This document shows, piece by piece, positions 8,483 through 63,105 of a stretch of 64,000 nt of DNA (position 1 is the first letter of the stretch; each line of letters opens with the position of its first letter). Location: the IMG/VR virus record IMGVR_UViG_3300042673_001351, positions 18,597 to 82,596 of that record. One strand, given 5' to 3'. Source of the stretch: a virus. A program made the translations under genes and the position numbers. The notes under the pieces are model-generated. The model searched no databases and was not told the DNA's origin. It saw nothing but the letters and a program-made list of their open reading frames with translations.

Positions 8483-9772
8483 CTAGGCTTGGTCTTGAGA
8501 ATCTCTCCATTGTTGATACATTGCATCTAGCTTATCGCTAAATGTTTCATCGCTAGAAGTTAATGCGTTTGCATCACTTTTTGCTCTATATGAATCGTGT
8601 ACTAGCGCATTGTCTGTAAAGAATAAGTCGTATGGCTCTACGTCAATTGATATTAGTAACTCTTTTTGTGTAGTTACTTTATAGTCTGTAATTTCTTTCC
8701 AGTCATTTTCGCTTGGTGAAAAAATTAAATCTGTTTCCAATACGCTTGATGATGGTTGGAATTGAATCTGTCCATCTCTTTTTATTAAAATAAAGTGTTG
8801 TAAAGAATATTTATTTCCATTAATAACAATAGCTCCTTCGTCAGAAATTCTTGCTGCCATTGCAACAATGGTAGTTTCGGCTGGGGATATGTTTGCGCTA
8901 TTAACAGACCAATTTTGTAAATATTCTAATATTGCTGTATTTGAAACATCTATTCCCTCGATATTAGCAGAGTATAAAACGTCGCCAACGCTTAGGTTGT
9001 GTGCAAGGATTAATCCTTCTGGCACCTTTGATTTAATAACTGTTTCTGCTCCAACCGATTTTGGAGTAAAGCCAAATGGAGTAAATCCAAACGGAGTAAA
9101 TCCAAACGGAGTAAATCCAAACGGTGTAAATCCAAATGGGGTAAATCCAAATGGGCTAAAACTAAATGGTGTTGTAGTAACTGAGTTTGAATTTCCGCTG
9201 TATGATGAAAAACCATTAGCGTTTTGAGCTCTTACCCTAACGGTTTGAGCTTCATTTCCGTTTTCTGATAGGTTAGCGCTAAATGTACTAGAGTTATATG
9301 ACGTAACATCATTTTCATGATCAATTAATCCATATCCAGTAATGTCTTTTCCACCATTATTTCCTGGGGCTGACCAAGAAACAGAGTTCGTTTCTGCTCC
9401 ATTATTTGAAAGACTTGGAGCGCTTGGTGTTTGTGGAACTGTTGTTGCTGTTATTGAATTACTTGCGTCTGACGGCACAGAATTACCAACTGCGTTTGTA
9501 GCTATAACTGTAAATGTATAACTAGTTCCAGATTGTAAACCTTCTACCGTAATAGGAGAAGAAGATCCAGAAGCAGTATAACTTCCTGGACTTGAGGTAA
9601 CTGTATATGAAGTAGCTGGTGGGGAATCTACGCTCATTGTAAATGGTACAGATGAGGCTCCATTATTAAATGCTCTATCTGTTCCTATATCTGTTGCTGT
9701 TCCGATAATTGGCTTAAATGGCTCTAAAAAGTCATTGGCCGATTGGCTCATTCTACCTGCTTGTTTTGACAT
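8483..9772 (-). CDS. Tail-fibre-type protein: two FN3 domains, PFGFT repeats, Hint-like C-terminal domain
   Basis: 429 residues with SD AGAGGAG. Residues about 45-110 and 113-200 look like fibronectin type III domains (SYTFTVIATNAVGNS; NSVSWSAPGNNGGKDITGY). Then come six tandem PFGFT units. Residues about 238-400 resemble a Hint (hedgehog/intein) fold: GAETVIKSK, LSVGDVLYS, KYSLQHFILI and the ending VEPYDLFFTDNALVHDSY, like intein blocks A, B and F. The Cys normally needed at the Hint N-terminus is absent. A paralogous C-terminus occurs in 14680-15681. Probably a virion protein. Confidence 0.75.
   Translation of the reverse strand: MSKQAGRMSQSANDFLEPFKPIIGTATDIGTDRAFNNGASSVPFTMSVDSPPATSYTVTSSPGSYTASGSSSPITVEGLQSGTSYTFTVIATNAVGNSVPSDASNSITATTVPQTPSAPSLSNNGAETNSVSWSAPGNNGGKDITGYGLIDHENDVTSYNSSTFSANLSENGNEAQTVRVRAQNANGFSSYSGNSNSVTTTPFSFSPFGFTPFGFTPFGFTPFGFTPFGFTPFGFTPKSVGAETVIKSKVPEGLILAHNLSVGDVLYSANIEGIDVSNTAILEYLQNWSVNSANISPAETTIVAMAARISDEGAIVINGNKYSLQHFILIKRDGQIQFQPSSSVLETDLIFSPSENDWKEITDYKVTTQKELLISIDVEPYDLFFTDNALVHDSYRAKSDANALTSSDETFSDKLDAMYQQWRDSQDQA
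9061..9168 (-). repeat. 15-bp tandem repeats encoding PFGFT units
   Basis: About seven near-identical 15-base units (plus-strand form GGAGTAAATCCAAAC with small variants) inside the fibre gene. They encode repeated Pro-Phe-Gly-Phe-Thr. Related single units occur in 15411-15450 in the paralogous gene. Confidence 0.9.
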
Positions 9773-28779: not shown

Positions 28780-29445
28780 ATGCACCCACTAACACCAAAA
28801 GACTATATGCCCAGAAAAGATCTGTTAAAAATAGATAATATAACAGAAATTATAGGAACTGGGACTGATAATATTAAAATAATAGAAAATTTTTTATCCG
28901 AAAAAGAAATTTCTACTGCATTAACCTTTTTAAAAAAACACCCAGTTAATGAAAATGCTACCCACTCGTATTCTTTGCAGCAGATACAGGGACACTCATC
29001 ATCATTAGATGAATTATTTTTTGGAGAAATGATGGGAAGAAAAATGGTCGAGTTAGGACAAAACCTTTATGGGCAACCATTAATAAAAGATAGACCGTTT
29101 TTATATGTAACACATCCAACTGGAACATACATCGATCCACATACAGATATACTAGACGTAGACGATCCAGATTACGATACCCCCAGTTTTGATGAACAGG
29201 TAAAAGAATTTCCCTATTTATGGAGCGGACACCTATCAATACTTGGCTATCTTAATGACGATTTTGAAGGCGGAGAACTTTATTTTCCAGAACTAGATTA
29301 TGGTTTTAAGCCAAAAAGGGGTTCAGTTGTGCTATTCCCTGGAAACTTACATTACGTACACGGCGTAGCTCCAATAACAAGTGGAGTTAGATATACAATA
29401 TCTCAGTGGTGTATATTTAAAAACTTTATATCTAAACCATCCTAA
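28780..29445 (+). CDS. 2OG-Fe(II) dioxygenase, prolyl-4-hydroxylase-like
   Basis: 221 residues. HTD (DPHTDIL), distal His (HYVHGV) and Arg (GVRYTIS) with LNDDFEGGELYFPEL: P4H-type ligands. TACAAT lies six bases before the ATG, so translation is probably leaderless. The only plus-strand gene between two minus-strand modification groups. Confidence 0.86.
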   Translation: MHPLTPKDYMPRKDLLKIDNITEIIGTGTDNIKIIENFLSEKEISTALTFLKKHPVNENATHSYSLQQIQGHSSSLDELFFGEMMGRKMVELGQNLYGQPLIKDRPFLYVTHPTGTYIDPHTDILDVDDPDYDTPSFDEQVKEFPYLWSGHLSILGYLNDDFEGGELYFPELDYGFKPKRGSVVLFPGNLHYVHGVAPITSGVRYTISQWCIFKNFISKPS

Positions 29446-29452
29446 ATAAGTG

Positions 29453-30400
29453 CTAAAAAAGTGCGGCGGAAGTAGAAGACATGTTTGAATCATGTTCTTG
29501 CTTAATCTGTATAAATCTATTTGCAGATTTCCTTGTTTGATTTAAAAAGGCATATAAAGCATTTCTATAGTGATCCCCAGTGCCAGATAAAATTAAATTT
29601 TCAACATCCCAATATTTTAGTACTGGGTATATAACTTCATCTAAATGAATACTGGGGTCATATATTCCCGCAAAAGCTAAAGCGTTACCCATTTCTCTAT
29701 ATCCTGGAATTTGATGCTGAGGGTAGTCAAATCCTGTAATAACATTGGATATGGCTTCCATGCCAACATCTGGATTTATTTCAAGTGCAGCTTTTACAAG
29801 ATTTCTATATACCATAAAGTGCAAGTTTTCATCCATTGCAATTCTTGCCATTAAGGCTTCACCAATAGGCTCATTAGTAATTTTTGCGGTATGTTTATGA
29901 ATAACCCTGGTTCCAAGTTCCTGAATAGTGGTGTATACAATAGTGTGTATCATATCATTTTTATAAGATGGGATTTTAAACCTTTTCCTCATGTGCTCTA
30001 GTCTTAAATTTTCTAATTTCTTTGGGTCCAGAACACGAGTCGTAACTATATAATCTCTTAGTGCAATTGAGTGACGATTTTCGTCGGCAGACCACAGATC
30101 AACCCATGTTCTCCAAGGCCCATCTTTATCAAATGCATAAGTAAGCTCAGTATGATATGCAGGCAAATTATCTTCTCCCAATAAAGACATCAATAGAGAG
30201 TCTTGTACAACTTTACTTAATTTTGACTGAGATTCGTCAAAATCTTTCCCACCCATTCTGGAGAAATTGCTTCCGAGATCCCAAGGAATATACTCATGTG
30301 GATACCACATTTTAGAAACAGAGTTATGCCTATTCATTTCATTTTCAACAACTGGTTCTAGTTGCCTTGTAATATCAAGAATTAATTTAGCACTATTCAT
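29453..30400 (-). CDS. Acyl-[acyl-carrier-protein] desaturase (soluble diiron, DesA type)
   Basis: 315 residues, close to the usual 270-340. All six diiron ligands are present: Glu85 (HTELTYAF), Glu107/His110 (ADENRH), Glu161 (IQELGT), Glu191/His194 (DENLH). The family inserts a double bond into ACP-bound fatty acids with O2 and reduced ferredoxin and is common in plants and Actinobacteria. In a phage it could alter membrane fluidity or supply an unsaturated acyl intermediate for the P450 and sulfotransferase products. Overlaps the next gene by eight bases. Confidence 0.92.
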   Translation of the reverse strand: MNSAKLILDITRQLEPVVENEMNRHNSVSKMWYPHEYIPWDLGSNFSRMGGKDFDESQSKLSKVVQDSLLMSLLGEDNLPAYHTELTYAFDKDGPWRTWVDLWSADENRHSIALRDYIVTTRVLDPKKLENLRLEHMRKRFKIPSYKNDMIHTIVYTTIQELGTRVIHKHTAKITNEPIGEALMARIAMDENLHFMVYRNLVKAALEINPDVGMEAISNVITGFDYPQHQIPGYREMGNALAFAGIYDPSIHLDEVIYPVLKYWDVENLILSGTGDHYRNALYAFLNQTRKSANRFIQIKQEHDSNMSSTSAALF

Positions 30401-43813: not shown

Positions 43814-44230
43814 TTACTCTTTTCCCGTATCGATAGGTTTAGGATTGTACCCAGCCCTATTTCTTTCTAATACATTAAATCCAGTTGCTCTTTCAAGTAC
43901 CATATAATGATAATTTACAAGTCCTAGATCATCTTCAAGCTTTTTTAAAATTTTATCTATTGGTAAGTCTCCGCAAGTGTATAGATCAAACTGAATTTCT
44001 GCTGGATTTGGTTCATCCCATATATGTAATGCTATATGGCTGGTCTCTATCATTACTATGCATGTGAGGCCCATATTGCCTTCTTTGGTCACATATGATG
44101 AATATGGACCCTGTATGGTCTTCATGTCGATGGAGTCGACTAATGACTGCATCCACTCTATTGCTGACGATTCACTTTTTATTGCACTATTTGTGTACCC
44201 ATTTACCAGTAATTGATTATGTAGTGGCAT
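43814..44230 (-). CDS. speD: S-adenosylmethionine decarboxylase-like proenzyme (SpeD/SpeH)
   Basis: 138 residues. Ser64-His65 in ETSHIALHIWDE matches the self-processing ESH site of bacterial SpeH (Ser63), with His69 and Cys86 (YTCGD) at the places of catalytic His68 and Cys83. Cleavage at the Ser would form the pyruvoyl cofactor. The product, decarboxylated SAM, feeds spermidine synthesis; polyamines neutralise packaged DNA. No spermidine synthase is visible in the window. Confidence 0.83.
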   Translation of the reverse strand: MPLHNQLLVNGYTNSAIKSESSAIEWMQSLVDSIDMKTIQGPYSSYVTKEGNMGLTCIVMIETSHIALHIWDEPNPAEIQFDLYTCGDLPIDKILKKLEDDLGLVNYHYMVLERATGFNVLERNRAGYNPKPIDTGKE

Positions 44231-44964: not shown

Positions 44965-46233
44965 TTAAACATTTATTTTACCTAATTCTTTTAATACTCC
45001 TTTTCCATATCTTGGATCTATTCTCATTAATCTGTTAATAATTTTATCTATTGTAGACTTATCTGCTCTTGATAAAGCTTTTGCAATATTTTTATGTAAT
45101 CTTGATTTTTGATTTTTGTCAAATAAATTCCATAAAGCCCTTGGCTGACTATAGTAATATTCTTCGTCTTGCCTATTTTGACACTCTAGCCAGATTATAT
45201 TATTTTTATATAGGTCCATATCTTTTCTAATATGAGTGGGCAGCTCATTTACTTTTTTACCCAACCTTATTTGTTGAAGTTTTGGATATGAATCCACCCT
45301 AGCAGTTAAGCTAAAGTCTGGAGATAGTCCCATTCCTTTTGGTATATTACCAGGAGCAAGAGCCATTTTTTCAAACTCTTCCATTTGATCATTTGGTAAT
45401 TGATTTAATTCAAATTCCCCGATTTCTATTAAAGGGAAATCTGCATGTGGCCATATATTTGTAGATGAGAATACGTTATAATTTAAATCTTTATACTTAT
45501 CCTCTTCCATCATTTGAATATAAACTTTCCATTTTGGGAAGTTTTTAGAGTTAATTAAATTTATCATGTCTACTGTCATTTTATCTGGATAATCGAAAGA
45601 TATTTTGGCAGCTTCTTCTTCGGAATACCAATCGTGTCCCTGTTGTGTCTTAAAATGAAATTTAATCCAAGTTCTATTTCCATCTTTGTCTATTAAAGAT
45701 GTCGTATTACATCCATATCCATTCATATGTTGCCAACCTTTTGGTATACCACGATCTGAAAATATCATAGTCATAACGTGCAGCCCAGATAAAGTTTTAT
45801 TAATAAAATTCCATTTATCTGTGTGGTCCAATGAATTTTTATAAGGATTTTTTATCATTGCATCATGGAATAGCATAGTGTCATCAATCATGTCTATCCA
45901 TTGAATTGGAGTACTTAAACCAACTATATCCCAAATTTCCTCTTCACCATAAAATCTTACGCTAAACCCTCTATTATCACGTAATAGCTCTGAGGTTCCG
46001 TGTTCAGACAATGTATTAGAAAATCTTATTGCTATCTTAAACTTTTTATTTAATTGTGATAAAAATTGAGATGTTGTATATTTAGATAAATCTTTTGTTA
46101 AAGTAAAATCTCCGTAAAATCCACTACCATTGCCATGAAAAATTCTTTCTTTAGTTTTATTTTTGTTTACAAAATTTATGGCAAATGATGCAATTTCATA
46201 CATATTGCCAGCATGTCTTAATATTCTTTTCAA
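44965..46233 (-). CDS. Catalase-like heme protein lacking the distal Asn
   Basis: 422 residues, shorter than clade-3 catalases (about 480-500). Framework is clear: ERIFHGNGSGFYGDF with the distal His33, RDNRGFSVRFYGEEEIWDIVG, PKGWQHMNGYGCNT, WIKFHFKTQQG, and LTARVDSYPKLQQIRLG with the heme-ligand Tyr316. In true catalases VGNNTP supplies the distal Asn; here it is VGLSTP (Leu106, Ser107). Catalase activity is therefore doubtful; a peroxidase or fatty-acid-hydroperoxide role, as in allene-oxide-synthase-type relatives, is conceivable. Overlaps the DUF2061 gene by four bases. Confidence 0.88.
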   Translation of the reverse strand: MKRILRHAGNMYEIASFAINFVNKNKTKERIFHGNGSGFYGDFTLTKDLSKYTTSQFLSQLNKKFKIAIRFSNTLSEHGTSELLRDNRGFSVRFYGEEEIWDIVGLSTPIQWIDMIDDTMLFHDAMIKNPYKNSLDHTDKWNFINKTLSGLHVMTMIFSDRGIPKGWQHMNGYGCNTTSLIDKDGNRTWIKFHFKTQQGHDWYSEEEAAKISFDYPDKMTVDMINLINSKNFPKWKVYIQMMEEDKYKDLNYNVFSSTNIWPHADFPLIEIGEFELNQLPNDQMEEFEKMALAPGNIPKGMGLSPDFSLTARVDSYPKLQQIRLGKKVNELPTHIRKDMDLYKNNIIWLECQNRQDEEYYYSQPRALWNLFDKNQKSRLHKNIAKALSRADKSTIDKIINRLMRIDPRYGKGVLKELGKINV

Positions 46234-52933: not shown

Positions 52934-53140
52934 TTACCTATCCTTTAATTCTTCTGCTGCCTCGTTAAATTTAGTCATAAATGTTTGAATTACCCAAAAA
53001 GTAGTCTCTCCCGCATTTTGTGCCATTGCTTTAGAGGACTCTTCTGTTCTATCTTCAATAGCAAGGGCGTTGTACCATTTCTGGTACAACTCCTCACCGA
53101 TTTCTTTAATTATTTCTTCTAGCACTGTCATGTTAGCCAT
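52934..53140 (-). CDS. Hypothetical helical protein
   Basis: 68 residues (MTVLEEIIKEIGEELYQKW, FMTKFNEAAEELKDR). Start overlaps the protease gene by eight bases; a second ATG at 53131 is possible. Unknown. Confidence 0.6.
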   Translation of the reverse strand: MANMTVLEEIIKEIGEELYQKWYNALAIEDRTEESSKAMAQNAGETTFWVIQTFMTKFNEAAEELKDR

Positions 53141-54266
53141 TTATTTTTTTAGCCCACTCCAATTTAATTGCAGCCAGTTTATCTGCAGCCAGTTTAACTT
53201 CAGCTTGGTATCTTGCTTCCGCCTCTGAAATTGCTTTGTTAGCCTCAATTGTAAGAGCAGCCTTTGCTTCGGCAGCCAATTGCTCTGCAGTTTTAGTTAC
53301 TGGAGTAACTGGCTTTGCTACTGCTGGTGTACTTGGCTGAATTACGCTTGGATTGCTAGAAATAAGTTTACCATATTGCCCTCTAGCACCACGTATTGGC
53401 TTTGAATTATTATTAAATATATCTAAAACCTGTTGATAGGTTAAAGAAGGATTTGAATATTTAATGCCAGCCCATGTAGCAGCAGCAACTTGTGTTGAAA
53501 TTGATGAGCCTGTTGCATTTTTTACTGATCCGCCTGGAACTGCAACCTTCATGTTGCCGAGAGCATAGAAGTCTAATCTATCTTTATCAAAATTAGAATA
53601 GTTATCTATTTGCTCATATTGATCAGCCATGCCAATTGACATTGAATCATTAATGCAGGCTGGCCAAGATAACCTTGAAAGGTCTCTCATGTTTCCTGCT
53701 GCAAAAAATACTGGAGTTCCAGAAGAAACTAATGATGATATCGCTCCACGAAGCATTGGTGTTGCTGGGCAATAGTCCGTAAGACTTGTTAGTATAGAGT
53801 GGTTTGCTTGAGACATTGCAACGCTTTGAATGTTAAAACGAGATTTATTATCTAATACCCATTTTAATGCTAAAGATACACCAGTCTCACCAGTAACTTG
53901 ACGAGTACCAGAGGGGGTATTTCCAATTATTCTTATAAAAACAATTTTAACATTTGGATTAGTTGCTACTGCAACTGATGCCATTTGTGTTCCGTGATCA
54001 AAACCACTTGAAGAAATAATGTTTGATGGCAGTACAGAAGATCCTGGACCCTCCATAAACTTTTGACCATTTGGACATGAGGCCCATTCCAAAATACATA
54101 CTTCGTAAACAATTTTATCTTTAAAAATTGGCAAAGAAGTATCTAGTGCTGTATCTAAAACAGCTACTGTAGGTGCTTGTGTTTCCGCCTTAGCTTCTAC
54201 AGTAATTAACATGGTGGATAGCATTATCGCTACCGCTGTACTTGCAGTTATTAGTTTTTTATTCAT
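53133..54266 (-). CDS. Secreted subtilisin-like serine protease (S8)
   Basis: 377 residues from ATG 54266. Signal peptide (KKLITASTAVAIMLSTMLITVEAKA). Catalytic Asp in VAVLDTALD, His in FDHGTQMAS, oxyanion Asn in FFAAGN, Ser in ATGSSISTQVAAA. A proline-rich linker and a helical, charged tail ending KLEWAKKING follow. It would act outside the host membrane, perhaps on surface-layer or competing-phage receptor proteins. The promoter places the transcript start at the ATG. Confidence 0.87.
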   Translation of the reverse strand: MNKKLITASTAVAIMLSTMLITVEAKAETQAPTVAVLDTALDTSLPIFKDKIVYEVCILEWASCPNGQKFMEGPGSSVLPSNIISSSGFDHGTQMASVAVATNPNVKIVFIRIIGNTPSGTRQVTGETGVSLALKWVLDNKSRFNIQSVAMSQANHSILTSLTDYCPATPMLRGAISSLVSSGTPVFFAAGNMRDLSRLSWPACINDSMSIGMADQYEQIDNYSNFDKDRLDFYALGNMKVAVPGGSVKNATGSSISTQVAAATWAGIKYSNPSLTYQQVLDIFNNNSKPIRGARGQYGKLISSNPSVIQPSTPAVAKPVTPVTKTAEQLAAEAKAALTIEANKAISEAEARYQAEVKLAADKLAAIKLEWAKKING

Positions 54267-54272
54267 ATGCAT

Positions 54273-54302
54273 ATTCTACTAAATTAGTAGCATATATGTC
54301 AA
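54273..54302 (-). promoter_or_regulatory. Sigma-70-type promoter of the protease gene
   Basis: Minus strand TTGACA, 18 bases, TAGAAT, then six bases to ATG 54266: a leaderless arrangement. Confidence 0.75.
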
Positions 54303-54469
54303 GAGTTCTTGTCTAACCTTCTTTGATACCATTTGCCAGCGTCTAATTGTGGTTGAGCTAAGCTGTTTGCTTCCAAAAGAGTTGCAAGCATGTTATTTAA
54401 CAAATCTATCTCAAACTCTAGTTTGATTATTTGCATTTCTAATAGCCTTAATCTTTCTGACTTTCTCAT
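54299..54469 (-). CDS. Small coiled-coil protein
   Basis: 56 residues (RLRLLEMQIIKLEFEIDLLN, MLATLLEANS). ATGA overlap with the gene upstream. Unknown. Confidence 0.57.
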   Translation of the reverse strand: MRKSERLRLLEMQIIKLEFEIDLLNNMLATLLEANSLAQPQLDAGKWYQRRLDKNS

Positions 54470-54675
54470 TCTGGTCTATCCTTTGGTGTAGGGGCGGTTG
54501 CTAAGCTTCCGCAGTTGGCGCATTCCATGTCTAAAAAGTATGTTGAGATATCAAAATCTTCAAACACCACTTTAAGATTCCAAACAAAGCATCCGCATGG
54601 GCATACGTGAGTTGGAGTTCCTCTAAGATCCATTGACATATTGTTGTTTTCTGGTCTTAGATCATTAATGTCCAT
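54466..54675 (-). CDS. Zinc-ribbon protein, leaderless start
   Basis: 69 residues: CPCGCF and CANCGS. TATAAT lies seven bases before the ATG. Zinc binding is likely; role unknown. Confidence 0.65.
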   Translation of the reverse strand: MDINDLRPENNNMSMDLRGTPTHVCPCGCFVWNLKVVFEDFDISTYFLDMECANCGSLATAPTPKDRPE

Positions 54676-54682
54676 ATAGTTT

Positions 54683-54711
54683 ATTATACTCTAAACTTCA
54701 ATTATTGTAAA
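54683..54711 (-). promoter_or_regulatory. Sigma-70-type promoter
   Basis: Minus strand TTTACA, 17 bases, TATAAT, inside the 3' end of the proteasome-like gene. Confidence 0.55.
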
Positions 54712-55260
54712 TGGTGGTCTAACAGACATGTTAAACTTAGAGGCAGCCTCTAGGGCCATCCTAACACGTTTACGAGGTGTTTTAATAGCAGTTGTAGAAA
54801 ACAGTGACCCTAAAGCCAACTCTTGTCCAGCACCCTCTGCCATATAAGCAACATCTGCTTCACCAATATGAAAATCGGTATCCATTACAAATATTCTACC
54901 TGAGCCTTGAACTGTGATGATAAAAACTCCACCTTCATCTCCGTCTTCCGTAGATCCTGCAGTTTGATTACCATAGCCTTGTTCTTTAAATGCCTCTTTA
55001 ATTGATTCTATAAACTTAGTACGCAAAAACTTATCTAAATTTTTGTAGCCAGCCGTAGGCTTATAAATTGGAGGTGTCCAGTTATATTGTAATATTTGAC
55101 CCATTCTAAAACTATCTACAAATCCTATACCGTATTGACCAACTTTAAAAACTTTTGGATCCACTCTGGAAAAAATTAAACCGCTCTTGTCGTCAGATGC
55201 GGCTGCATCGCCCCCTAATAGGACTTTGTTTTCATGGATTAAGGCTACTACGGCTGTCAT
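54691..55260 (-). CDS. Proteasome-beta/HslV-like Ntn hydrolase
   Basis: 189 residues. After Met removal the chain begins TAVVALIHENKVLLGGDAAA, matching the N-terminal nucleophile Thr and Asp17 of proteasome beta subunits; FKVGQYGIGFVDS gives the Lys33-like position. No propeptide is present. Actinobacteria have a 20S proteasome; a lone phage beta-like subunit might form its own ring or interfere. TATACT six bases before the ATG suggests a leaderless mRNA. Confidence 0.75.
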   Translation of the reverse strand: MTAVVALIHENKVLLGGDAAASDDKSGLIFSRVDPKVFKVGQYGIGFVDSFRMGQILQYNWTPPIYKPTAGYKNLDKFLRTKFIESIKEAFKEQGYGNQTAGSTEDGDEGGVFIITVQGSGRIFVMDTDFHIGEADVAYMAEGAGQELALGSLFSTTAIKTPRKRVRMALEAASKFNMSVRPPFTIIEV

Positions 55261-55292
55261 GCTACTAGTATACTATTTATAAATTCGAAGGG

Positions 55293-55601
55293 CTAGCTCT
55301 CTTTTTCTGGAAAATCTAGGTCTGTGAGCTCTCTCAAGGCATTTTCAAGCTCGGATTTGACCATAATAAGGTCTTGAAGGGTGCTATAGTATTTATCTTT
55401 CCACTCAGTCAATTCTTTTTCTAACTGGTAGAGCTCTATTTTAAGATCTTTTAATTCTATTTTTAAATGGTCTTGCTCACGCTCTATTTGTCTATTTTTT
55501 TCTTTTTTATTATCGCTAACTCCAGCAATAATTGCCGTGCCCATGCCAGACAATATCGCTGCAGATATTGCAATAATTATAGTTGTCAGATCCAGATTCA
55601 T
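55293..55601 (-). CDS. Membrane-anchored coiled-coil protein
   Basis: 102 residues. One N-terminal span (LTTIIIAISAAILSGMGTAIIAG) then a long charged helix. TATAAT ten bases upstream of the ATG. Could be an inner-membrane spanin-like or Rz-like factor; unproven. Confidence 0.6.
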   Translation of the reverse strand: MNLDLTTIIIAISAAILSGMGTAIIAGVSDNKKEKNRQIEREQDHLKIELKDLKIELYQLEKELTEWKDKYYSTLQDLIMVKSELENALRELTDLDFPEKES

Positions 55602-55631: not shown

Positions 55632-55868
55632 TTAAATTAATAACTCAGAAGCTGTAATTTCTTGTCCAACATACTTCCTTTTTAAAACAAATTCTCTAAC
55701 TACTTCTGCGCCTTGCTGGCGACCAGTTAATATAATTAGCCATCTTGGTTCAAATTTAGAAAGTATGCAAGACTCGCACATAAGTAAATTAATTGAAACA
55801 AGTGTTGACTTTTTCATAGTTAACTTGTTTTTTGTTTTATTGCATGAATAGCAAAGAACTTTATCCAT
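55632..55868 (-). CDS. Small zinc-ribbon protein
   Basis: 78 residues from ATG 55868 (GTG 55874 possible; GAGG upstream). CYSCNK and CESCIL. KFEPRWLIILTGRQQGAEVVREFVL is familiar from phage hypotheticals. Function unknown. Confidence 0.62.
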   Translation of the reverse strand: MDKVLCYSCNKTKNKLTMKKSTLVSINLLMCESCILSKFEPRWLIILTGRQQGAEVVREFVLKRKYVGQEITASELLI

Positions 55869-56064
55869 TTTCACCCTCTTCTATGTGTGTAAACACTATC
55901 TCATCCATTATAATAAACTCCTCATTCCCTAGTAGCTCTTCATGCTCTATTTCATCTTTTGTATATTTAACATTAGACGCAAAAGCACCTAATTTTTCAA
56001 CGGTTCCATGCATATCATCTTCTGGGATATAAACGATTAATATCCTATCGTAATATTCTTTCAC
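55861..56064 (-). CDS. Hypothetical acidic protein
   Basis: 67 residues, acidic (KDEIEHEELLGNEEF). Overlaps both neighbours. Unknown. Confidence 0.58.
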   Translation of the reverse strand: MKEYYDRILIVYIPEDDMHGTVEKLGAFASNVKYTKDEIEHEELLGNEEFIIMDEIVFTHIEEGENG

Positions 56065-56365
56065 TAGGAACCCCTTCCAGTTCGCATCTTACCCCATATG
56101 ACTCTATCAATTTTTTTACTTTTGATACGTAGTCTATGACCATTTCTTTTTTAGTACCCTCAAATTGTATAAAGTTGTCTTCATACAATCTTAATGCTAA
56201 AAATTCTGGATATTTTACAACATCCATTTGTAAGTTGTTTGCTGGTTTAGATATTCCTCTTAAAGCTTTAGCCATTTCTGGTGTGTAAAATACTGGCTTG
56301 TTAGGCTCGCCAGTCCATTGATTTATTCCATGCTTAAAATGATTTTTGTTTTTATCAATGTACAT
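56045..56365 (-). CDS. Hypothetical protein
   Basis: 106 residues. NHFKHGINQWTGEPNKPVFYTPEMAKALRG and FLALRLYEDNFIQFEG. Not recognised. Overlaps the WhiB gene by eleven bases. Confidence 0.62.
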   Translation of the reverse strand: MYIDKNKNHFKHGINQWTGEPNKPVFYTPEMAKALRGISKPANNLQMDVVKYPEFLALRLYEDNFIQFEGTKKEMVIDYVSKVKKLIESYGVRCELEGVPSERILR

Positions 56366-56666
56366 TTTTTGCCTTCAATCTTTTCCATACTTCTGGTGAT
56401 TTATGAATATTCCTTGGCTTATCTATAGAACCAGAATTTAAATAAACTCCGCCCCAAACGCCATGCTCATTATTTTCAACACCAGTTTTGTAACACATTT
56501 TTATAACAGGGCAAGCCAAGCATGCCTCATCAATATTTTTTGCAATTTTATCATCTACTTCATATTTTTCATAAAATAGATTAGTGTCCATTCCCCTGCA
56601 TATAGAAAGATGCCACCAGTCTAAATCTTCTTCATCAATACCAATACTATTTAAAATATTTGACAT
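56355..56666 (-). CDS. WhiB-family Fe-S regulator
   Basis: 103 residues from ATG 56666 (an ATG at 56693 is possible). CRGMDTNLFY, then CLACPVIKMCYKTG, then HGVWGGVYL: four cysteines that hold a [4Fe-4S] cluster and the GxWGG turn that contacts the sigma factor. WhiB proteins are confined to Actinobacteria and their phages; phage forms can shut off host whiB genes. A basic C-terminus (PEVWKRLKAK) could touch DNA. Confidence 0.9.
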   Translation of the reverse strand: MSNILNSIGIDEEDLDWWHLSICRGMDTNLFYEKYEVDDKIAKNIDEACLACPVIKMCYKTGVENNEHGVWGGVYLNSGSIDKPRNIHKSPEVWKRLKAKNVH

Positions 56667-56880
56667 ATTGTTTTGGCAACCCCCATGATCCATTTTTGCT
56701 TACAATAAATTTTTTATGTGTACCCCAATTATTTTTATGATACATTCCATTAGCATTGTAGTATCCAGAACTATCCTGTTCCCACAAAACTAAATCATAA
56801 TTGTTCCAAAATGAATCTTGTAATTTATGATTGTATCTTTTAATAAACACATTAACCCCAAGCTCATTTAAATATAACAT
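56647..56880 (-). CDS. Hypothetical protein
   Basis: 77 residues, aromatic-rich (DSFWNNYDLVLWEQDSSGYY). Similar in style to 42508-42729. Unknown. Overlaps the next gene by one base. Confidence 0.57.
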   Translation of the reverse strand: MLYLNELGVNVFIKRYNHKLQDSFWNNYDLVLWEQDSSGYYNANGMYHKNNWGTHKKFIVSKNGSWGLPKQYVKYFK

Positions 56881-57461
56881 TATTTTCTACTTGCCTTTTT
56901 TACTAAATCCATAATATTTTTTCTAAATTCTCTATCAATATCTTCCATATCTGCGTGTTCTAAGTGGCAAAATATCATATCGCATACATCATTAGAAGAA
57001 AATTCTACTTTTTTTCTAGAGTGAACCTGGTGGGTTCCAGAGAATGTTAATGCCTGATTATCTTTAAGGCTGTACTCTTTTCCATTTACAATAATTGGCC
57101 AATCTATTGTTGATTTAACCTGTATATCAAATGTTAACATTGGCTTTTTAAATACTGAATCTATATGAAAGTCTAAGTTTGGCATTATGTGTGAGGTTGT
57201 ATCATACCTAGCAAATTGTATTCCCAATATAGACATTCTTTTTCCATATGCCTGCTCAACCCTGTCTTCAATAGCATTAAATATATCTTCCGCACCATCA
57301 AATCTTGAATCAAATTCTTTTATATAAAAAACTGTTTGTCCCCATGGGTTATCGTTTTTAATTTTATCTTTTGGACAAACTTCCACAGCCTTATATATTC
57401 TATCAATTTGATCTTGAGTCAAAATGTTGTCTAAAATTTTATTTTCTATATCTGGATTCAT
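56880..57461 (-). CDS. Putative 2OG-Fe(II) oxygenase
   Basis: 193 residues from ATG 57461 (TAATG overlap with the upstream gene; an ATG at 57506 is possible). FHIDSVFKK gives HxD; distal His in HQVHSRKK. DWPIIVNGKEYSLKDNQALTFSG is shared with 49921-50508. Likely hydroxylase of unknown substrate. Confidence 0.68.
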   Translation of the reverse strand: MNPDIENKILDNILTQDQIDRIYKAVEVCPKDKIKNDNPWGQTVFYIKEFDSRFDGAEDIFNAIEDRVEQAYGKRMSILGIQFARYDTTSHIMPNLDFHIDSVFKKPMLTFDIQVKSTIDWPIIVNGKEYSLKDNQALTFSGTHQVHSRKKVEFSSNDVCDMIFCHLEHADMEDIDREFRKNIMDLVKKASRK

Positions 57462-58162
57462 TAGTATTGACTCAAATGTGAAGAGTCTTCTCCTTCGTTT
57501 ACCCATAAGTTTTTAGAAGCTTCGGGTATATACTCTTCAATTGGAATTTCCACCCCAACATCAAATGTATACCAAGTAGGCATTGTAAATCTCAATCCAG
57601 ACTCTACGTTTTTAACATAATGTAAATAATAATTATTGGCTGGAAATATGACGAGATCCCCTGCTTTTGGCTTTATTTCTAAATCGTAATCTGGCCATCC
57701 GATTTCTCCTCCAGTATAGTTATCATTTGGATATATTAATGCAGTAATGTTTAATTTATAATAATTAGACTTCATTAGTGGACTTCCGTCTGGGTACTGG
57801 CAATCAGAATGTAGCCCACTAGACATTTCAGGTTTCCATTTTACTATATGAAAAGGATTCCATGGCATATATTTTAGTTTTATGTCATATTTGTCACAGT
57901 ATTCTTTTTTCATTATTGAAAAAACTTTACTTCCGTATTCCATAATTAGTTCAAATAGCTCTTTATTTTCGTTTTTTATTTTATCTAAAGTCAATGTCTT
58001 GCCACCAGAAAACTCTGGGTCATCTTTGTATTTATCTATATAATTCATTACTAAATCTATTTCATCGTTTGTCATAAAGCCAGGTACGTGAATTATATTT
58101 TCTTTTGATTTACCAATCTTATCAAAATATTCTTGATAGTAGTCCCAAATATGCTTTGTCAT
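57461..58162 (-). CDS. 2OG-Fe(II) dioxygenase, prolyl-4-hydroxylase-like
   Basis: 233 residues. HSD (SGLHSDCQYPDG), distal His (YYLHYV), Arg (GLRFTMP), with YPNDNYTGGEIGWPDYD between. Start overlaps the upstream SGNH-like gene by four bases. Confidence 0.84.
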   Translation of the reverse strand: MTKHIWDYYQEYFDKIGKSKENIIHVPGFMTNDEIDLVMNYIDKYKDDPEFSGGKTLTLDKIKNENKELFELIMEYGSKVFSIMKKEYCDKYDIKLKYMPWNPFHIVKWKPEMSSGLHSDCQYPDGSPLMKSNYYKLNITALIYPNDNYTGGEIGWPDYDLEIKPKAGDLVIFPANNYYLHYVKNVESGLRFTMPTWYTFDVGVEIPIEEYIPEASKNLWVNEGEDSSHLSQY

Positions 58163-60186: not shown

Positions 60187-60378
60187 TTACTCTTTGTCGG
60201 ATCTCTCTCTTATTCCGATAGTTAAAAACCATAGGGCTACTGAGGCTAAAGTTACATAGCCTACTACTGTCTTTGCGCTGCCCTCAAGTACCACCCAGGC
60301 TACGAAAAATCCTAGGAATGTAAAGTTTTCATTTAGGGCCGCAAAGCCCCATTTTTTTAACCAGTTCATATTCATATT
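60187..60378 (-). CDS. Small membrane protein
   Basis: 63 residues from ATG 60378 (GGAAGG before it). Two spans (FTFLGFFVAWVVLEG; VVGYVTLASVALWFLTIG). Could be a second holin or an exclusion protein. Confidence 0.6.
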   Translation of the reverse strand, partial: NMNMNWLKKWGFAALNENFTFLGFFVAWVVLEGSAKTVVGYVTLASVALWFLTIGIRERSDKE

Positions 60379-63034
60379 ATACCTTCCTTCTATATGCTGT
60401 GCCAAGAACTATCTGGCCAGCTATTATTGTTACAACTACTATATCTTCTGCTTTTTCACGTTCTGGGATAGACATGTCGGCACCTATGTTAATCAGTGCC
60501 TTGCCTAATTCACATTTTTGCTCTTCCGTCAAACCTTCAATTGCTTCATCTGGATTGAAACAGCTGGCTATTGCATTTGCTAAAGCTGCTGGGCTTTCTA
60601 GAACAAGCAACGCTGAGGCTACCTCTGCTTGAATTACTACTGGGTTACCATTATCATCTTCTCTTACCTCTACTGGAATTGTAGGAGGAAGATCACGATA
60701 TTCTAGCCCCGCTGATTCTATGTTTGCTGCAGTTACTGGGGCTCCCTCTGCTGATGAAACTAATACATCTGCAACTAAATCTTTTTCTGCTAAAGTAAAT
60801 TTGCCGTCTTCAGATAAGGCTTCAGATAAATTAACAACTTCTGCAGTTGTTATTTCTCCATCTGCAGAAAGCATTTCTGTAATAAATTCTGCTTCTGCTT
60901 CTGTAAGTCCGCCTTCTGATAAAGATTCAGACACTTCAGCAGCAATCTCTGCAGAAACCTCTCCACCTTCAGCAATTGCTTCTAGTACTGCAGAAACCTC
61001 AGATGCATCTAAACTACTATCGCTAATTAAATCAGTAACAACTTCTTGAATATCTTCTACAGAAAGGTTTGCACCACTTTCTGATATTTCTTCAATAGAA
61101 ACTTCACTTTCTTCAAATACAACCTCTGCTTCTTCTGCAGGAGTATCAACAGGCTCTGTGTCTATTGGTTCTGTATCTACAGGTTCTGTATCAACTGGTT
61201 CTGTATCTACAGGTTCTGTATCAACTGGTTCTGTATCTACAGGCTCTGTGTCTATTGGCTCTGTATCTACAGGTTCTGTGTCTATTGGCTCTGTATCTAC
61301 AGGTTCTGTGTCTACAGGAGTTGTGTCAACTGGAGTTGTGTCTACAGGGGTTGTATTAACTGGAGTTGTATCTACAGGACCACCACCATTTAAATTTGCA
61401 CCTTGTGGTGCTGGTACAGAAATAACAGTATCAGTATATTGACTTACAGGTCCAGACCAGTTAGCAACTCTAACAGTATAGGTAGCGCCTTCTGTCAAAC
61501 CACTTAACTGAATAGATGCAGGAGCACCATCTGTATTATATGTTCCACCTTCGTATGGATTTTCTGCATCTGGATCATCTGTTATTACTTGATAGAACCA
61601 AGTGTTTGCTGTATATCCTTCAGGTAGAGATGGTGTAATAGTTGCGGTAGTTCCTGCAACAATTGGAGTTGAAATTATTGGGGCAGGGGTTGGAATGTTG
61701 TTACTAATTGCAGTAACTAGTTGACTTGATTTAGTGTTTAATGATGACTCAAGAGATGTCTTTGTTGATACCGCTGAGTTTACCGTATTGGTTAAAGATG
61801 TAGTATTAATAGCATTTATATTAGATGTGTTTGTAGTATTTTGAGCAACTACTGGGGTAAGGCTTGAGTTTAATTGTGCAATCGTTGCATTTGCTGCGTC
61901 AACCGATGCCTGAACTGTTTCTGTGTTTGAATCTACATATGGAGTGAATGCTGCACCTTGACTTATTTGTCCAGCAAAACCTGCTCCAACATTAGTATCT
62001 GTAATTGGAATGAGTGCACCGTTAGTTGTTTCTCTATAATTAAACCTTGCTTGATTTGGTATTGGTCCATTAGCAGTTACACTTGCCATCCATGCACCAT
62101 TATTTGGATTTACATCAGCATTAAATCTTACTTGAACCATTTGCGTAGAGGCATCTTGTTGTGGGTATGGACGAAGGTCCCAAGCAATATCTAAACTTGT
62201 ACCAGTTGTTGCATAGGTAATACCTGTTCCTGTGCTCCAAGTAGTCCAGTCCCATCCCGCTATAGATACGGATGGGGCACTTGGAGTTGTATGGTATACG
62301 CCACCCTCATTTACACCAAATGTTATTGTTGCATTAGACCCAACATAAACGTTATTATAAACAGTTCCACCCATTTGCATTCCGAACGGAAGATTCATTT
62401 GAACCCCAGCATCATCTACTCCAGCCAAAACATTTGTGCTAGTTCCAATAGTGGCTTGTAAATTGTTGACTGCTGTTTGGGCAGCATCAATAGCAAGGTT
62501 TGCTTGAGTTAATTCGGTTTGAGCAGTTGCCTGTGCTGTAGAGGCTTCTGTTTTTGCAGCGACTACTTCAGATATTGCTGTCTGAGCCTCTGTTATTTGT
62601 GTTGTTATATTATTTATAGCGGTAGTTGCAACAGTTACTGTAGCCTTTGCATCTTGAACTACCTGAGAACCTTGATCTATTGGGGTAACAGATAAATCAA
62701 CACTACTAATAGTATTAATAGCGGTTTGAACATTACTTATTTCTGTATTAGCTAAAGATATTTTTGATGCTACCTCTGCCACGATAGGTTGAGCTTGAGA
62801 ATATTCGGTTTGTGCTTCTGTTACCTCCACTAAGGCTGTTTCAGTGGCTGTAATGGCTTGCTGAACCTCTGTAGTGGCGGTTGCAAGTGCTTCATTAACT
62901 GCCTGTTGTGCAGGACTTACAACAACTTGTTCTTGTCCGCCTTGATCTGTAGCCCAAGCATAACTTGGTCCAATAAAAAATAGCCAACCTGTAACAAAAA
63001 GGCTAGCTAAAAAGTATTTTAACTTTCTACTCAA
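60377..63034 (-). CDS. Large surface adhesin-like protein with PVDTEP repeats
   Basis: 885 residues from TTG 63034, with GGAG six bases upstream (TTG 63046 is in frame). Signal-type N-terminus (YFLASLFVTGWLFFIGPSYAWA), long helical region, a beta-sandwich domain (MQMGGTVYNNVYVGSNATIT), an FN3-like domain, about 19 repeats of PVDTEP/PIDTEP, an acidic Ser/Glu-rich helical region and a C-terminal span followed by YRRKV. The layout resembles a membrane-anchored surface protein more than a virion fibre. Confidence 0.75.
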   Translation of the reverse strand: MSRKLKYFLASLFVTGWLFFIGPSYAWATDQGGQEQVVVSPAQQAVNEALATATTEVQQAITATETALVEVTEAQTEYSQAQPIVAEVASKISLANTEISNVQTAINTISSVDLSVTPIDQGSQVVQDAKATVTVATTAINNITTQITEAQTAISEVVAAKTEASTAQATAQTELTQANLAIDAAQTAVNNLQATIGTSTNVLAGVDDAGVQMNLPFGMQMGGTVYNNVYVGSNATITFGVNEGGVYHTTPSAPSVSIAGWDWTTWSTGTGITYATTGTSLDIAWDLRPYPQQDASTQMVQVRFNADVNPNNGAWMASVTANGPIPNQARFNYRETTNGALIPITDTNVGAGFAGQISQGAAFTPYVDSNTETVQASVDAANATIAQLNSSLTPVVAQNTTNTSNINAINTTSLTNTVNSAVSTKTSLESSLNTKSSQLVTAISNNIPTPAPIISTPIVAGTTATITPSLPEGYTANTWFYQVITDDPDAENPYEGGTYNTDGAPASIQLSGLTEGATYTVRVANWSGPVSQYTDTVISVPAPQGANLNGGGPVDTTPVNTTPVDTTPVDTTPVDTEPVDTEPIDTEPVDTEPIDTEPVDTEPVDTEPVDTEPVDTEPVDTEPIDTEPVDTPAEEAEVVFEESEVSIEEISESGANLSVEDIQEVVTDLISDSSLDASEVSAVLEAIAEGGEVSAEIAAEVSESLSEGGLTEAEAEFITEMLSADGEITTAEVVNLSEALSEDGKFTLAEKDLVADVLVSSAEGAPVTAANIESAGLEYRDLPPTIPVEVREDDNGNPVVIQAEVASALLVLESPAALANAIASCFNPDEAIEGLTEEQKCELGKALINIGADMSIPEREKAEDIVVVTIIAGQIVLGTAYRRKV
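61150..61380 (-). repeat. 18-bp tandem repeats encoding PVDTEP
   Basis: Plus-strand unit GGTTCTGTATCTACA with small variants and 12-18 base period, in frame within the adhesin-like gene. Confidence 0.88.
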
Positions 63035-63105
63035 TTGGATCTCCAAGTAACAAAATTTTTGTTACATGAAGATTATATCATGTATACCTATTTAAATAGT
63101 CTTAG

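Follow-up and report, generated by a model that had tools for sequence, protein, structure and literature searches.

A proteasome-like protein that most likely belongs to the AAH group, encoded by a probable actinobacterial phage

Introduction

The window analysed here is a stretch of 64,000 nucleotides within an 82.6-kb viral record from IMG/VR. It contains a gene (54691..55260, minus strand, as are all features of the gene itself and of its conserved block given below) whose product of 189 amino acids, with the N-terminus MTAVVALIHENKVLLGGDAAAS, resembles a proteasome beta subunit. Such a gene in a phage raises the question of whether its product works by itself or acts on the proteasome of the host. 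The original prediction, made from the sequence, allowed for both: the protein might form its own HslV-like protease, or it might poison the host's PrcA/PrcB particle.

Gene start and catalytic residues

Thr is residue 2 of the protein (codon 55255..55257), right behind the initiator Met. The motif GGDAAA occupies residues 16-21 and includes Asp18 (codon 55207..55209), which stands at the position of proteasome Asp17. Lys36 (codon 55153..55155) is the Lys33-like residue, which a short insertion shifts two residues beyond the position that exact proteasome spacing would give. The protein has the Thr1/Asp17/Lys33 triad by which the proteasome-like family is recognized. A Thr at position 2 normally permits removal of the initiator Met, and such removal would expose this Thr as the N-terminal nucleophile. 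An in-frame TAG (55273-55275) lies just upstream of the ATG and, reading the sequence directly, none of the four codons 5' of the ATG (TAT ACT AGT AGC) is a start codon, so a propeptide is impossible from this frame. In all of these features, i.e., the placement of the Thr, the GGDAAA motif, the Lys33-like position and the missing propeptide, the original prediction was correct. It had also stated that no alpha subunit is nearby, and PF00227 indeed has no match in the 82.6-kb record. This negative result is an imperfect one, because the 189-aa protein, too, escapes PF00227, and because the record is possibly incomplete.

We compared 138 distinct proteins, 48 from the clade of the window protein and 90 others. 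Asp18 and Lys36 are present in all 138, while Thr2 is present in 48/48 of the clade and 89/90 of the others, the exception being a Ser. Because the clade is only ~24-41% identical to the 90 other proteins, this conservation is far beyond what chance would produce. Other positions are more variable. Gly46, at the apparent oxyanion position (Gly47), is Gly in 30 and Ala in 18 clade members. The position of proteasome Ser129 is occupied by Ala144 (codon 54829..54831; GSG becomes GAG); 46/48 clade members have Ala here, and most other relatives Cys or Ser. In profile alignments to PDB sequences, the apparent Asp166 position is Met178. Judging from these alignments, the second catalytic set of the proteasome (Ser129/Asp166) is not kept. 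In the yeast proteasome, these two residues have been suggested as proton donors to the Thr1 amine, and a D166N mutant loses much activity (PMC4792962). Given their loss here, the protein may be a weak protease or use a different chemistry, and catalysis may thus be altered relative to the proteasome.

Family assignment and predicted fold

The whole protein is matched by PHROG 1040, the 'peptidase HslV family' (6.5e-11). A Pfam search of the protein returned no match, and Pfam Proteasome matches 11 of the 43 members of our family alignment. The NCBIfam model of the 20S beta subunit, TIGR03690, gives a sub-threshold score of 12.7 bits (cut-off 191.9). We rejected an identity as 20S proteasome beta (PrcB) on the basis of this score, the lack of a propeptide and the absence of PF00227 matches from the record. 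When the family profile was compared with PDB sequences, BPH (5ovs) was matched over its full length at 6.2e-9 and HslV at 1.3e-8, with a weaker match to actinobacterial proteasome beta (PrcB, 2fhg, 4e-4).

AlphaFold2 run on the single sequence reached a pLDDT of 33, and we used the run on the 43-sequence alignment instead (pLDDT 90.6, pTM 0.87). In a Foldseek search of the PDB, the resulting model matched BPH best (1.3e-10, TM ~0.7), followed by HslV and then by proteasome beta subunits. The model places the protein inside the Ntn fold, as the original prediction would have it: the predicted fold is the alpha-beta-beta-alpha arrangement of proteasome beta, with BPH and HslV closest. By profile and by model alike, these two are nearer to the 189-aa protein than PrcB is. 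Helices are predicted at residues 51-60, 75-93, 146-155 and 162-176, so that both helix pairs, including helix 2, are present. Model and sequence together show an AAH-type architecture, in which H1-H4 are present, the chain stops after the last core strand, and there is neither a C-terminal S12/H5 nor a propeptide. The loop after helix 2 (residues 94-111, 54928..54981) is located where BPH and HslV have their pore loop. Residues 100-107 of this loop are of low confidence in the model, and an acidic EDGDE occupies residues 105-109, with similar sequences in the clade members listed. By analogy, the loop would line a pore.

Relatives of the protein are numerous. At least 489 IMG/VR contigs encode one, and a large set of near relatives in IMG/VR has 81-98% identity. 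Searches by tblastn found relatives in 72 phage records at ~25-38% identity, several of them annotated as HslV family, proteasome subunit or Ntn hydrolase; at the DNA level, no match to sequenced phages was found. Phages of E. coli, Vibrio and Geobacillus carry relatives, as do T5-like phages of E. coli K-12, such as TrudiRoth and SuperGirl. Remote family members are annotated as 'protease' in the cultured actinophages Pumpernickel (Microbacterium) and Pitbull and Hum25 (Arthrobacter), and Gordonia phage Daredevil has a fold match. Given these four phages, proteasome-like proteins in actinophages are not new in databases. Bacterial genomes encode relatives with 34-40% identity, e.g., in Frankia, Streptomyces, Actinomadura, Azospirillum, Rhizobiales and Paenibacillus, so that alphaproteobacteria and Firmicutes are included.

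This bacterial distribution is that of the AAH group described by Fuchs, Alva and Lupas in 2021 (PMC8665760), and the protein therefore most likely belongs to this group, which falls within group I of their survey and is related to BPH and HslV. The assignment is based on host distribution, size and helices. The protein is an ordinary member of a phage and bacterial family that has already been described (PHROG 1040, and most likely AAH in PMC8665760), a point that the original prediction had missed.

Evolutionary position and selection

In a maximum-likelihood tree, the window clade forms one branch (support 100/99) with a long stem. It belongs to a set, supported at 99/95, that contains phage and bacterial AAH-type proteins and excludes the clade of Actinomycetia phage DSL-LC01. 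Within this tree, the window clade is placed outside the bacterial set, which means that the gene was not acquired recently from any of the sampled actinobacteria. The outgroup consisted of three HslV and one Prc; of two further outgroup loci, which had been read on the wrong strand, L271 was left out and L272 filled only 13% of columns, so that its placement is meaningless.

A second lineage includes the protein of DSL-LC01 and a paralogue in four related contigs. This paralogue (L075:16545-17075, L076:15833-16363, L050:16085-16615 and L051:9786-10316) is 177 aa long, has ~26% identity to the first proteasome-like protein and is encoded ~6 kb downstream of it. It was not found in the window.

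The gene for the 189-aa protein is under strong purifying selection. Of eight genes of the region that were tested, it has the lowest median dN/dS versus relatives (0.065); these values, calculated by NG86, are approximate, as dS is near saturation.

Genomic context and probable host

The gene is part of a conserved block that extends from a subtilase to a WhiB-like gene and the next small gene. The order of this block is kept in nearly all of the ~75 relatives with enough sequence, while the flanking genes vary. The subtilase (Peptidase_S8; 53133..54272; PF00082, 1.8e-17) has a signal-peptide-like N-terminus and occurs in 74/76 relatives. Next to it lie a gene for a small protein (54299..54469; 76/77) and, directly downstream of the proteasome-like gene, one for a small Cys-rich protein that looks zinc-ribbon-like by eye (54466..54675; same place in 78/78). 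Directly upstream is a gene for a 102-aa protein with an apparent N-terminal membrane segment and a coiled coil (55293..55601; 72/79; PHROG 10127, which has no annotated function). Further members are a small Cys-containing protein (55632..55874; 78/78; PHROG 11425, likewise with no annotated function), a 106-aa protein (56045..56365; 75/75) and the WhiB-like protein (56355..56693; PF02467, 8.3e-12; 74/74). The family members of other phages have completely different neighbours, so the family as a whole has no obligatory partner.

Freshwater studies take WhiB as a marker of actinophages (PMC10202952, PMC6802176), and the gene is present in 6/6 long related contigs tested and in DSL-LC01. From this gene, we conclude that the host is probably an actinobacterium, which agrees with the context assumed in the original prediction. 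The virus probably infects freshwater actinobacteria.

Several other genes of the window deserve mention. The variable stretch beside the conserved block has a 2OG-Fe(II) oxygenase-like gene (57461-58162); two more are found at 1800-2998 and 28780-29445. One of the three was confirmed by PF13640 (1.7e-9) and the others were recognized by eye, and methyltransferase- and sulfotransferase-like genes are mixed with them. A full-length catalase (44965-46233, minus strand; PF00199, 3.2e-93) has homologues in related viral contigs (e.g., L009 97%, L064 66% and L044 40% identity), and the catalase matches listed in sequenced phage records have only ~26-37% identity. The window also encodes a cytochrome P450 (25030-26460, plus strand; PF00067, 4.8e-68), with a 30% relative in related contigs L052 and L053, a fatty acid desaturase of the FA_desaturase_2 family (29453-30400, minus strand; PF03405, 8.9e-58) and an S-adenosylmethionine decarboxylase (43814-44230, minus strand; PF02675, 5.2e-13) with 12 matches in related loci. 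Two large proteins contain tandem peptide repeats (8483-9772 and 60377-63046, minus strand; units FGFTP and VDTEP/IDTEP), and are perhaps structural or surface proteins.

Function and alternative explanations

The reading that we prefer, with a probability of roughly 0.55, is that the protein is a catalytically competent, stand-alone threonine hydrolase of the proteasome-like type, most likely AAH, that acts as a self-compartmentalising peptidase and is not accompanied by a phage-encoded unfoldase. Host methionine aminopeptidase would remove Met1, and the exposed Thr2 would act as the nucleophile together with Asp18 and Lys36. Identical subunits would assemble into a double ring like those of BPH or HslV, with acidic pore loops, and this ring could degrade a limited range of unfolded polypeptides, from the host or from the phage. 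It would do so independently of ATP, or else be fed by a chaperone or ATPase of the host. We searched the 82.6-kb phage record for an HslU-type AAA_2 or a generic AAA partner without a match, which does not prove the absence of an unfoldase, as the record may be a fragment. By analogy with BPH, a ring peptidase with restricted substrates that works independently of an unfoldase seems the best reading. The part of the original prediction that proposed an HslV-like protease of the phage's own is in line with the predicted fold, the intact triad and the stand-alone gene.

The other part of that prediction held that the protein enters or blocks the host 20S proteasome. This idea fits a probable actinobacterial host, as 20S beta was over the cut-off in 121 of 296 sampled actinobacterial genomes, and it fits the detectable, if weaker, profile match to PrcB. 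However, the triad is invariant and the gene is under purifying selection, and the best matches by fold and sequence are the homo-oligomeric BPH and HslV. Moreover, E. coli, Vibrio and Geobacillus, whose phages also carry relatives, are groups that have HslV and no 20S proteasome. Small genomes are typical of freshwater actinobacteria; among the matches listed for the 296 genomes, no genome with 20S beta is of 1.6 Mb or less, and a 20S proteasome seems to be absent from the smallest actinobacteria sampled. We therefore consider poisoning of PrcA/PrcB to be unsupported and highly improbable. Searching the literature on proteasomes in Nanopelagicales yielded no result. A protease-like gene in a tailed-phage genome might instead suggest capsid (prohead) maturation. 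We judge this role very unlikely, and the least probable of those considered, because the same record has a separate Peptidase_S78 prohead-protease domain (G000:15407-15595), as do 9/10 related IMG/VR contigs searched, and the 189-aa protein has the Ntn fold rather than an S78-type one. In addition, no capsid gene was recognized beside its gene, and coliphage vB_EcoM_E9.1 has a family member in addition to an annotated head maturation protease.

The protein could also be an Ntn enzyme other than a protease, i.e., a monomeric ligase or an amidase. The proteasome-like family does include a ligase, connectase (PMC8665760), and the missing Ser129 and Asp166 equivalents would suit such a role. Nevertheless, we find it unlikely, given that the model has both ring-contact helix pairs while connectase is without the first, that the two-helix insertion of connectase is not seen, and that the closest relatives by fold are ring peptidases. 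It is conceivable, though doubtful, that the protein acts by removing or inactivating one particular host protein of defence or regulation, possibly with its neighbours (the subtilase, the Cys-rich proteins and the membrane coiled-coil protein). The conserved order of a block of ~10 genes in ~75 contigs with variable flanks speaks for this idea, while the completely different neighbours in other phages, and the lack of any link to defence in our analysis, speak against it. An extension of our preferred ring-peptidase reading can be offered only tentatively: the deep viral AAH branch might have become one of the core genes in a lineage of freshwater actinophages, encoding an unfoldase-free ring protease of altered chemistry (no Ser129/Asp166 proton relay) that removes specific host proteins in the course of infection.

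AAH proteins and their phage relatives are widespread, and none is, to our knowledge, documented as an active enzyme or as an assembled particle. The window clade indicates that an AAH gene can be a near-universal and strongly constrained part of a phage lineage, and therefore that it matters to the phage. Because T5-like phages of E. coli K-12 carry relatives, the question of function is directly testable in a laboratory system.

Comparison with known systems

The protein shares its fold and triad with HslV, and phage relatives are annotated as 'HslV'. It differs from HslV in that no HslU-type ATPase was found in the (possibly incomplete) phage record, and in that its loop after helix 2 is longer and acidic, where HslV has a short linker. 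BPH (5ovs, 5ovu) is the best match by fold and by profile, and has also been reported to have an acidic pore loop and no partner unfoldase (PMC5777263). However, identity to BPH is ~15-19%, and the BPH gene is bacterial rather than phage-borne. The model substrates assayed in that study revealed no clear activity of BPH itself (PMC5777263). In PHROG 1040, the protein is a divergent member with a significant match and no difference at the family level. PPH proteins are likewise phage-borne and proteasome-like, but they have ~140 aa and lack helix 2; membership in this group was ruled out by the length of 189 aa and the helix at residues 75-93.

With AAH, the protein has in common the Thr-Asp-Lys triad, the missing propeptide, both helix pairs and the occurrence in phages, and its relatives turn up in the same host groups (Frankia, Streptomyces, Azospirillum, Rhizobiales and Bacilli). 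For AAH, the 2021 survey reported neither activity nor assembly and found no function, and it listed no AAH from actinophages (PMC8665760). The window clade differs from the published group in being a deep branch of its own, outside the bacterial set to which it has 34-41% identity, in having Ala at the Ser129 position, and in being borne by phages that encode WhiB. An AAH-type lineage in actinophages fills a gap in hosts noted in that survey. What is new here is modest, namely a deep, strongly purified AAH-type branch in WhiB-encoding, probably actinobacterial phages, located in a conserved block near a subtilase.
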